Shown piece by piece: positions 13,531 to 36,448 of a stretch of 64,000 bases of DNA. Below the pieces are notes generated by a model. The model had not been told where the DNA came from. It searched no databases and worked only from the letters and a program-made list of their open reading frames with translations. The position numbers and the translations under genes are program-made. How positions within the stretch are numbered: position 1 is the first letter of the stretch; each line of letters starts with the position of its first letter. Source of the stretch: Astropecten irregularis (taxonomy: Eukaryota; Echinodermata; Asteroidea; Paxillosida; Astropectinidae); the NCBI GenBank assembly GCA_963971285.1, contig OZ020253.1, positions 1,240,001 to 1,304,000 of the forward strand, read 5' to 3'.

Positions 13531-13768
13531 GGGCGTTTACGTTACGGAGGCCCAGGCTCTGTCTCAGGCTCCGGCTCCATATCGTGATTCCATTCTGAAA
13601 TAACGGGTATCAAAATAGAGGCTTTTGGCTGCGGTTCGGAATTATATTCTTTGCTTTGAAAATGAAAACAAAACTTCAGCTTCAATGAAAATCCACAACC
13701 TGTATTTTCAGCATGGATGTCAGAGCTGGAGCCCGAGCCCGAGCCTGAGCCGCAGTTTCGTAAACCGC
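13531..13768. repeat. Family F element with hexamer-built ends
   Basis: The left end GGCGTTTACG leads into GGCCCAGGCTC and CTCAGGCTCCGGCTCC. The right end is GAGCCCGAGCCTGAGCC followed by GTTTCGTAAACCGC, so the ends are inverted copies. The core (GGCTTTTGGCTGCGGTTCGG, AACTTCAGCTTCAATGAA) is shared with 18574 and 42500. Confidence 0.7.
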
Positions 13769-13930
13769 TTATGTATGGCCGTGTCACAAATCTCTGGCTG
13801 TGGCTGTATATTACACACACACCTAGGGCAGCCACTATATAGCCAGTGACTGCAGCCGTTTCCATAGACTTGTGCGAGATTTGGGACTATTATCAATTTA
13901 TTTTCCGTGTAATGTTAATTGCTTAAAGGT

Positions 13931-17574: not shown

Positions 17575-18573
17575 CACTCGTATAGGGTACACAGAGCCTC
17601 TGTGCTCAGTGTTATTAAACACATTGATGTAGTAGGAACAGTTGCTTGAAATTCGATAAGGGCAGGCTCTTTAATTTGAGCTGAGATATTTCCTGTGAAT
17701 TATTGACCGGTTAAAGCAATGGTGTTACGATAACTATTTAGGTTATCTAGCGGCAGAGTGCATAATAAGGAATGACCAATTACCGATTAAAAGACCAATG
17801 CAGCATCATCTTTCAAAAATAGCTTCAAAATAGCTCCGGGATACTTCGTTCTTCTCTCTGACATCTGAAACAAGACCATCATGGAACTGGATACCTCGGT
17901 TAGCATGACAACCGACTCCAATCAATAAAAGATTCGATGATTTGTGGTCAAGGCAAGTGGCACTATGAGAGTCCGTCACGGAAGGCCTGAAGAGGTTAGA
18001 GGTGATATGGTCTGATCAGATTCCACCTGTGCCGAGGTCTCGGCAGTAGAGTCTGGTGGACGCGCTCAGGAAATGCTAGACGTCGTGGCCAAGCTAACCC
18101 CTTATAAGAGAGCTAAATATTTCTCGACTCTTCTAGGACAGAGCTGATTGGGCAAAGTGGGAAGACTTGGAGAGTTACCTCTCAGAGGAAGGTCAGTTGA
18201 ATAGATGTCGTACCACTGTTTCTCAGACCATTACGTCAAGGGGGTTATAGTTCTCGAGTGAAATTACTATTCAACATTCATGACCCAATCTCAAATGATG
18301 TCACTTTATCAGGATTTATGGACTTTACAGAGCTTTATCATCATTTTAATTACCTAAATCAAATCCCAAAGATTTGGGAGGGTTATTTTTTTCAGAGCAT
18401 GAGTCACCAGCCTAGCTAGATAACTGCAATTTTCCCCAGTTTCAATCTCCACTACTTATAGGGATATCAAGTTTCAACAGACAGAGGAAGATAGCGCCCA
18501 AAGTGTCACATACCGCTGGCATGCTCTTTCATTCAGCTCGAACCAGGGGTACATGATTAATACAGTAGTCATA
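17575..18573. other. Spacer with a possible retroelement remnant
   Basis: Around 18130-18250 a short plus-strand frame reads ADWAKWEDLESYLSEEGQ, reminiscent of the linker before reverse transcriptase in some LINEs. The open stretch is too short for a firm call. CAGACAGAGGAAGATAGCG near 18478 matches 6889. Confidence 0.25.
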
Positions 18574-18810
18574 GGGCCCGTTCGAAACGGCTGCTTAGGC
18601 TCAGGCTCAAGCTCCGTCATCCATATGCTGAAAATAATAGGTTGTGGTTTTTTATTGAAGCTAAAAATCTGTTTTTCCTTTTCAAACCAGAGAATCTACT
18701 TCCGAAACGCAGCCAAAAGCCTCTATTTTGATACCAGTTATATTAGAATGGATTCATGACATGGTGCCTGAGCCTGAGCCTGAGCCCGAGCATGAGCCTG
18801 AGCCTGAGCA

Positions 18811-35356: not shown

Positions 35357-35439
35357 TATAGGTAATTGCTGCCTTGTTTTGTTAACCTATAGTTTAGGTT
35401 TTGAATACACAAGTTAAATGTTGTGCAATTTTTTGTTTT

Positions 35440-35459
35440 TGTCTTCTTGATTTTGACAG
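35440..35459 (+). promoter_or_regulatory. 3' splice site before the neuropeptide start codon
   Basis: A T-rich run followed by CTTGATTTTGACAG ends at 35459, a good acceptor. It leaves 12 bases of 5' UTR before the ATG at 35472. This implies at least one upstream non-coding exon. Confidence 0.65.
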
Positions 35460-35471
35460 AGTGTTTTCAAG

Positions 35472-36326
35472 ATGGCGCGTAAGGATCTGATGCTACTCCT
35501 GGTATCGCTGCTGGTGGCTGCGGCGGTACTTCAGTGCCGCGCCGATGAAGACGCTGACGACAACGACGGGGAGGCCCAGGAAGTCCAAGAGGCAGCCGGA
35601 GAGGGAGAGGATCCTGAAGAGCAGAAACGGGGCAACCACTTCGCTAGCTCCCGGACCCGCGGGAGGAACTTCAGGCGCATCACCAAATCTGACGGGGACG
35701 CCGAAGACTTCCAGGACGAAGAGGAGAAGCGGGGCAACTTCTACGCCAACGGAGGGCGCCGTCGTGGAGCCATGAGGCGCGTCACCAAGGCCGACCCAGG
35801 AGAAGAAGAGGGACCGGAGGAATTTGAGGGAGGAGAAGGTGACGAAGAGGAAGACGGAGAAGGCGCCGAGAAGCGCGGCAACCGTTTCAGGACCGTCTCC
35901 CGGGTTACACATGGCATGAGGCGCATCACCAAGTCCGACCCCGAGCTGGAAGACTCCCTGACTGACGAGGAGAAGCGCGGCAACCGCTTCAGGACCGTCT
36001 CCGGGAGGCGACCTGGCATGAGGCGCATCACCAAGTCCGACCCCGAGCTGGAAGACTCCCTGACTGACGAGGAGAAGCGCGGCAACCGTTTCAGGACCGT
36101 CTCCGGGAGGCGACCTGGCATGAGGCGCATCACCAAGTCCGACCCCGAGCTGGAAGACTCCCTGACTGACGAGGAGAAGCGCGGCAACCGCTTCAGGACC
36201 GTCCCTGGGAGGCGACCTGGCATGAGGCGCATCACCAAGTCCGACCCAGAAGCCGAGGAGATGGAGGAAGACAAGCGAAACTACTACGCCCGCAACAGGT
36301 CGCGGGGTGGTGCGCGCCGATTTTAA
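35472..36326 (+). CDS. Secreted neuropeptide precursor with seven basic peptides
   Basis: A 284-residue secreted precursor. Residues 1-24 form a signal peptide (hydrophobic LMLLLVSLLVAAAVL, likely cut after CRA). Six cassettes start at residues 54, 88, 136, 170, 204 and 238, each preceded by KR and opening with GN. They share the 19-residue form GNRFRTVSGRRPGMRRITK; the first two are GNHFASS and GNFYANG variants. A seventh peptide, NYYARNRSRGGARRF, ends the protein. Acidic spacers such as SDPELEDSLTDEEKR separate them. KR sites fit prohormone convertase cleavage. The start has a strong Kozak context (AAGATGG). No cysteine follows the signal peptide, so no disulfides are expected. The layout recalls the echinoderm AN-peptide type of precursor, but that assignment is from memory and untested. 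Coding GC is far higher than the flanks. Confidence 0.92.
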   Translation: MARKDLMLLLVSLLVAAAVLQCRADEDADDNDGEAQEVQEAAGEGEDPEEQKRGNHFASSRTRGRNFRRITKSDGDAEDFQDEEEKRGNFYANGGRRRGAMRRVTKADPGEEEGPEEFEGGEGDEEEDGEGAEKRGNRFRTVSRVTHGMRRITKSDPELEDSLTDEEKRGNRFRTVSGRRPGMRRITKSDPELEDSLTDEEKRGNRFRTVSGRRPGMRRITKSDPELEDSLTDEEKRGNRFRTVPGRRPGMRRITKSDPEAEEMEEDKRNYYARNRSRGGARRF

Positions 36327-36433
36327 GCCTCTCAAAGGCACCGACTTATCCTCGGATAATGTCGTCCACGGAATTTGGCTAAAGAGCTTTAATCAATTAC
36401 GAAAACATTTGGGTTCAACTTAAAAACAAAACT

Positions 36434-36448
36434 AATAAATAAAATAAA
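36434..36448 (+). terminator. Clustered polyadenylation signals
   Basis: AATAAA occurs at 36434-36439, 36438-36443 and 36443-36448, about 110 bp after the stop codon. Another AATAAA at 37850-37855 would allow a longer 3' UTR of about 1.5 kb. Confidence 0.55.

Follow-up and report, generated by a model that had tools for sequence, protein, structure and literature searches.

The forward-strand reading frame at 35472..36326 of the window (the whole 64,000-nucleotide stretch of Astropecten irregularis DNA analysed here, G000:C17:1240001-1304000 in the assembly) is best read, with reasonable but limited confidence, as encoding a secreted starfish multi-peptide precursor, most probably the counterpart of the echinoderm AN-peptide precursors with GN in place of AN. 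That the gene is a neuropeptide-type precursor appears highly likely, since the ORF, the KR sites, the acidic spacers and the signal-like start all support this assignment; that it is specifically the AN-type counterpart is a closer call, towards which we lean slightly. According to this reading, which is drawn from sequence, the N-terminal signal would take the precursor into the secretory pathway and a prohormone convertase would cut after each of the visible KR sites, releasing the six cationic GN peptides together with the final NYY peptide, each set apart from the next by an acidic spacer. The peptides would then serve as transmitters or hormones, and their receptor, to judge from the general kind of molecule, is probably G-protein-coupled.

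Reading frame and layout of the precursor

The frame runs uninterrupted from an ATG at 35472, which has an A (a purine) at -3 and a G at +4, to a TAA at 36324-36326, and specifies 284 residues plus the stop (G000:C17:1275472-1276323). In-frame stops are found upstream of the ATG at 35415, 35448 and 35454, and a pyrimidine-rich tract followed by CAG, read from the sequence, marks a putative 3' splice acceptor at 35458..35459 on the same strand. Because the acceptor and the stops lie just 5' of the ATG, an upstream 5' untranslated exon is implied, and the coding sequence may occupy only one exon. Three overlapping AATAAA polyadenylation-like signals (starts at 36434, 36438 and 36443) occupy 36434..36448, also on the forward strand.

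The length of the ORF is by itself weak evidence, because, of 500 random sequences drawn with the local composition, 12 contained stop-free runs of at least 289 codons (0 of 40 with the whole-window composition) and because the opposite strand holds a 299-codon open frame at 35493-36392. The motif content was compared with 20,000 shuffles of the post-signal residues: KRGN occurs six times in the precursor and at most twice in the shuffles. The precursor has a single Pfam match, which at E 0.035 does not reach the cut-off of the family, and a single PDB sequence match (E 0.039); both were taken as chance.

All parts of the precursor are on the forward strand. A hydrophobic, signal-peptide-like N-terminus of 24 residues, MARKDLMLLLVSLLVAAAVLQCRA (35472..35543; cut after A, placed by eye), is followed by an acidic leader of 29 residues with a charge of -12 that ends in KR (35544..35630). 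Then come cassette 1, GNHFASSRTRGRNFRRITK (35631..35687), cassette 2, GNFYANGGRRRGAMRRVTK (35733..35789), cassette 3, GNRFRTVSRVTHGMRRITK (35877..35933), cassette 4, GNRFRTVSGRRPGMRRITK (35979..36035), cassette 5 (36081..36137), the peptide of which is identical to that of cassette 4 with one silent difference in the DNA, and cassette 6, GNRFRTVPGRRPGMRRITK (36183..36239). The last peptide, NYYARNRSRGGARRF (36279..36323), runs to the stop codon. KR stands directly before all seven peptide segments. Thus, the preliminary description of this region, which had proposed a signal-like start, KR-led cassettes and six units of the form GN..RR(I/V)TK, is borne out by an intact 284-residue ORF in which each of the six units measures exactly 19 residues.

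The charges of the precursor alternate. The cassettes carry +6 or +7 each and the seven peptides together range from +5 to +7 in 15-19 residues, while the stretches between cassettes, with KR counted in, carry -5 to -13 over 13 to 29 residues. Six of the seven peptides start with GN and one with NY; none starts with AN. All six cassettes share G1, N2, R15, R16, T18 and K19. Either F or Y stands at position 4 and either I or V at position 17, and the variable positions are 3 and 5-14. In a MAFFT alignment the RRF of the last peptide falls over the RRI/RRV of the cassettes, as had been claimed, together with its end at the stop, before this analysis.

Cassettes 3-6 with their spacers form a tandem DNA repeat of a 102-bp unit (35868..36247, + strand; 3.7 copies, 96% matches), and therefore the independent cassette types number only about three. 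The 102-base units of cassettes 3 and 4 are distinguished by 8 bases, 7 of them in one 11-base patch that reads SRVTH in cassette 3 and SGRRP in cassette 4. When cassettes 1, 2 and 4 are compared with one another, at most one non-synonymous change falls in the last five codons and one or two differences, at residues 3 and 4, in the first four; in the middle, 7 to 9 of 10 codons differ non-synonymously. Since the codon differences cluster in the middle in these three cassettes, the cassette ends appear to be conserved and the middle free.

Ends of the mature peptides

The cassettes have no dibasic site at positions 19-20, RR being present only internally. As the best single guess for the mature form, we give roughly an even chance to a long form, GN...RR(I/V)T, of 18 residues after Lys removal, with a last peptide ending in RRF. 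This form is favoured because the cassettes are of a constant 19 residues, RR(I/V)TK is found in all six, the last peptide ends in RRF and the last five codons are conserved. In addition, the R-x-x-K that precedes Ser or Ala-Asp in the cassettes could, we assume, act as a monobasic site. Against the long form, cleavage at a single Lys is the less common case and, if the gene is of the AN type, the peptides of its relatives include ends at Gly or one residue short. It had been suggested earlier that the mature peptide stops at the hydrophobic residue, after trimming at the following TK, or at the K itself. The fixed length, the shared tail and the RRF end agree with such a long product; however, ordinary carboxypeptidase trimming takes off Lys alone, and consequently the long form would end at Thr rather than at Ile or Val.

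Less probable is a short product ending at Gly-RR, for example GNRFRTVS-NH2. The GGRR and SGRR cassettes from which this possibility had been drawn were read correctly, and cassette 6 adds PGRR, so that Gly stands before RR in four of the six cassettes (2, 4, 5 and 6), which favours the short form; cassettes 1 and 3 and the last peptide, however, have no Gly-RR. Convertase sites with Ile, Val or Pro next are in poor context, and RR is followed by Pro in cassettes 4-6, which also argues against the short form. The published sea cucumber data point both ways for the proposed amide: ANRYNALR, found by mass spectrometry, is in line with processing of this kind, but as described it has neither Gly nor amide (PMC6586643). 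The probability that is left is shared by 14-residue products and by whole units cut solely at KR.

The candidate forms differ in their computed [M+H]+ values, which are 935.52 for GNRFRTVS-NH2 and 936.50 for its free acid in the short form, 2117.17 for GNRFRTVSGRRPGMRRIT and 2016.13 for GNRFRTVSGRRPGMRRI in the long form, and 1590.84 for GNRFRTVSGRRPGM in the 14-residue form. For the last peptide, RR uncut would give NYYARNRSRGGARRF at 1843.95, in contrast to NYYARNRSRGGA at 1384.68 for RR cut.

Genome searches and other loci in the assembly

The genome scanned comprises 475.7 Mb, and the sole strong match of the precursor in it is the precursor itself. The second match, on C12 (E 1.8e-4), is a short-period repetitive frame, and the five weak matches on C8 (E 0.0017 to 1.09) lie in a stretch where no frame of more than 30 residues has a [KR][KR][AG]N motif. 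No second frame of at least 40 residues with two [KR]R[AG]N motifs was found in the window or in the 120 kb around it. An exact-codon scan for KR-GN-x-aromatic with an AAGCG start returned 56 sites (716 in the backwards control), among which the precursor, with 5 sites, is the only cluster within 1 kb.

Three codon scans for KR-AN, which required an aromatic fourth residue and certain codons, gave 28, 86 and 72 sites. Because the corresponding backwards controls gave like counts (79, 65 and 72), these numbers lie close to background. One recurrent string, with Ser instead of Arg after Lys, makes up most of the 86 sites. By eye, no precursor-like KR-AN cluster is present among the 28, 86 and 72 listed sites; 11 of the 28 were read with their surroundings, and none of these has more than one motif or resembles a precursor. 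The sole KR-AN pair within 1 kb seen by eye among these sites, two KRANFF motifs 884 bp apart on C17, belongs to a duplicated non-precursor frame. A broader KR-AN scan counted 1,232 sites, with positions for the first ones listed.

An array of KRGNRY motifs at G000:C17:17524960-17534243 was rejected as a precursor and is an EGF-like exon repeat. It comprises seven identical codon sites spaced at about 1,545 bp; the six copies that were read all carry one identical frame of 80 residues, in which an EGF-like motif was recognised by eye, as in a recent exon amplification.

Exons of an NGFFYamide-type precursor are present at G000:C18:5923556-5933798, and a second neurophysin-family exon lies within about 250 kb of them (C18:6175726-6175941). 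A frame with two NGFFYGKR copies stands about 2 kb upstream of one C18 neurophysin-family exon, on the same strand, and the 10 kb read upstream of the other showed no vasopressin-type motif. NGFFYamide is described as the NG peptide of A. rubens (PMC6156427), NGFFFamide as that of the sea urchin, and NGIWYamide, without neurophysin, as that of the sea cucumber (PMC3432112). An exact-codon search of the genome for FNSALMFGK, presumably the Asterias S1 peptide, returned 0 matches; this peptide is thus absent, and the starfish is probably not an Asterias.

Contig C168 (16,335 bases) can be read as mitochondrial DNA with genetic code 9. By eye, its ND1 and ND2 run on the other strand from COX1, which we take to be the starfish arrangement. 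Together with the two NGFFYGKR copies before a neurophysin-type exon, this mitochondrion marks the genome as very probably that of a starfish. Two further COX1 sequences were seen. One, at G000:C131:32162-33484, lies in a 552-residue open frame without TGA codons; bacterial records are closest among the matches listed, at 69% at best, with Margulisbacteria, KSB1 and Spirochaetes near the top. Judged from these matches, C131 is a bacterial contig in the assembly, from a symbiont or a contaminant. The other, at G000:C25:9951047-9952018, is a partial copy with 7 TGA codons and is probably a nuclear copy of mitochondrial DNA.

In the window, a dispersed SINE-like repeat lies at 13545-13886 on the minus strand. 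A first look through the genome gave 5,574 candidates for it; 40 of these were scored, and the 39 other places match over about 200-330 bases at 80-90%. Frames related to it (by eye) are found near 18424-18759 of the window and in the C18 NGFFYamide-type exon region. From stop to stop, the window has 21 ORFs that reach 110 residues or more, and ten of them (114-193 aa) match no Pfam family at E 0.01.

Relation to the AN-peptide precursors and alternative readings

ArANPP of Asterias rubens is described as a protein of 274 residues with a 24-residue signal; dibasic sites bound its six AN peptides, and three of these peptides have a C-terminal Gly (PMC4772807). Compared by description, this precursor (KT601733), likewise from a starfish, is close to ours in length (274 versus 284 residues), in its 24-residue signal and in its six motif peptides, and in both a Gly precedes a dibasic site in some peptides (here the Gly-RR of cassettes 2, 4, 5 and 6). 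The two differ in that the ArANPP peptides start with AN, whereas those of Astropecten start with GN and are joined by a seventh, NYY peptide. The AN precursor of the crinoid Anneissia japonica (AnjapPCNP1) is described as having 16 AN and 2 GN peptides (PMC9793003), and so the GN start occurs within the AN family; our precursor resembles it in being multi-copy and including GN peptides, but has no AN. The AN precursor of the sea cucumber Apostichopus japonicus (AjANPP) is longer (555 versus 284 residues) and its peptides are given as ANRYNALRG (3 copies), ANRRFSVG and ANRYNALREE (PMC6586643).

The AN-type assignment is supported by the ArANPP-like architecture, by the crinoid GN peptides and by the lack of a KR-AN cluster among the listed sites. 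Residue by residue, GNRFRTVSG of Astropecten and ANRYNALRG of AjANPP agree in register at N, at R, at an aromatic position and at the G with which both end. Their score of 20 is the best similarity found; when all pairs are considered it was reached by 4,005 of 50,000 permutations, and for GNRFRTVSG alone by 2,957 of 50,000. By this test, in which two of the three published sea cucumber AN peptides were used, the residue similarity is not significant. A genome search with an artificial query pieced together from the sea cucumber peptides gave no match, and such a query is uninformative. The comparison with AN-type precursors that had been recommended at the outset fits by architecture; the peptide starts differ, and the residues do not decide the matter. 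By strict name the precursor is not an AN member, because none of its seven peptides begins with AN.

These same observations lend some weight to the view that this is indeed a neuropeptide precursor, but one that belongs to a GN-type family of its own, the true AN precursor lying elsewhere in the genome and having been missed. The absence of an AN start in all seven peptides and the non-significant similarity to the sea cucumber peptides are in its favour, as is the design of the scans: they were tied to an aromatic fourth residue and certain codons, so that a peptide such as the sea cucumber ANRRFSVG, which lacks that aromatic, would escape, and of the 1,232 sites of the broad scan only the first ones are listed. 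Nevertheless, the closeness to ArANPP in length, signal length and peptide number, the GN peptides of the crinoid AN precursor and the lack of a precursor-like KR-AN cluster among the 28, 86 and 72 listed sites make this view the less likely one, and we regard it as possible but doubtful.

The cassettes are not GN-19 of Apostichopus japonicus. That peptide is GGRLPNYAGPPRMPWLIHN, described as one copy in an 82-residue precursor (PMC3432112), and its likeness to the cassettes is confined to the label and the length of 19. For five of the precursor peptide strings no match was found in literature text, outside which figures and supplements fall; one sea cucumber string matched the sea cucumber paper.

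A cationic antimicrobial or polyanion-binding peptide precursor, in which acidic spacers neutralise the peptides until release, is improbable. It would account for peptides of +5 to +7 in 15-19 residues and spacers of -5 to -13, but only 5 of the 19 residues of the common cassette are hydrophobic (F, V, M, I, P), which is low for a membrane-active peptide, and the KR cassette layout is that of echinoderm neuropeptide precursors. Still more improbable is that the frame yields no peptides, and either specifies a repetitive secreted protein that works uncut or is open by chance or as an antisense ORF: the open 299-codon frame on the minus strand and the equally long stop-free runs in local-composition draws would allow it, but the signal-like start, the seven KR-bounded segments, a KRGN count equalled in none of the 20,000 shuffles and a plus frame with fixed ends and variable middles argue against it.

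For the favoured reading, an AN-precursor counterpart, a neuronal role is a fair inference, since AN precursor genes are described as active in larval neurons of the sea urchin (PMC6224346, PMC6209648) and antibodies against a sea urchin AN peptide are described as labelling ciliary-band neurons in A. rubens larvae (PMC8427176). The descriptions of ArANPP (PMC4772807) and AjANPP (PMC6586643) name no receptor for AN peptides. We suggest, as a tentative and rather unlikely proposal, that this starfish lineage may have an AN system in which all copies have switched to GN, the long cationic RR(I/V)TK tail is constrained, the active peptide has 17-19 residues and receptor recognition has shifted away from the short AN form, or else a GN-peptide family that is new and has a receptor of its own. 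The all-GN start and the two fixed ends around a free middle would serve as a guide to the residues to be kept in test peptides, and the starfish GN version may offer a natural contrast that helps in tracing the receptor and in establishing the true mature form.
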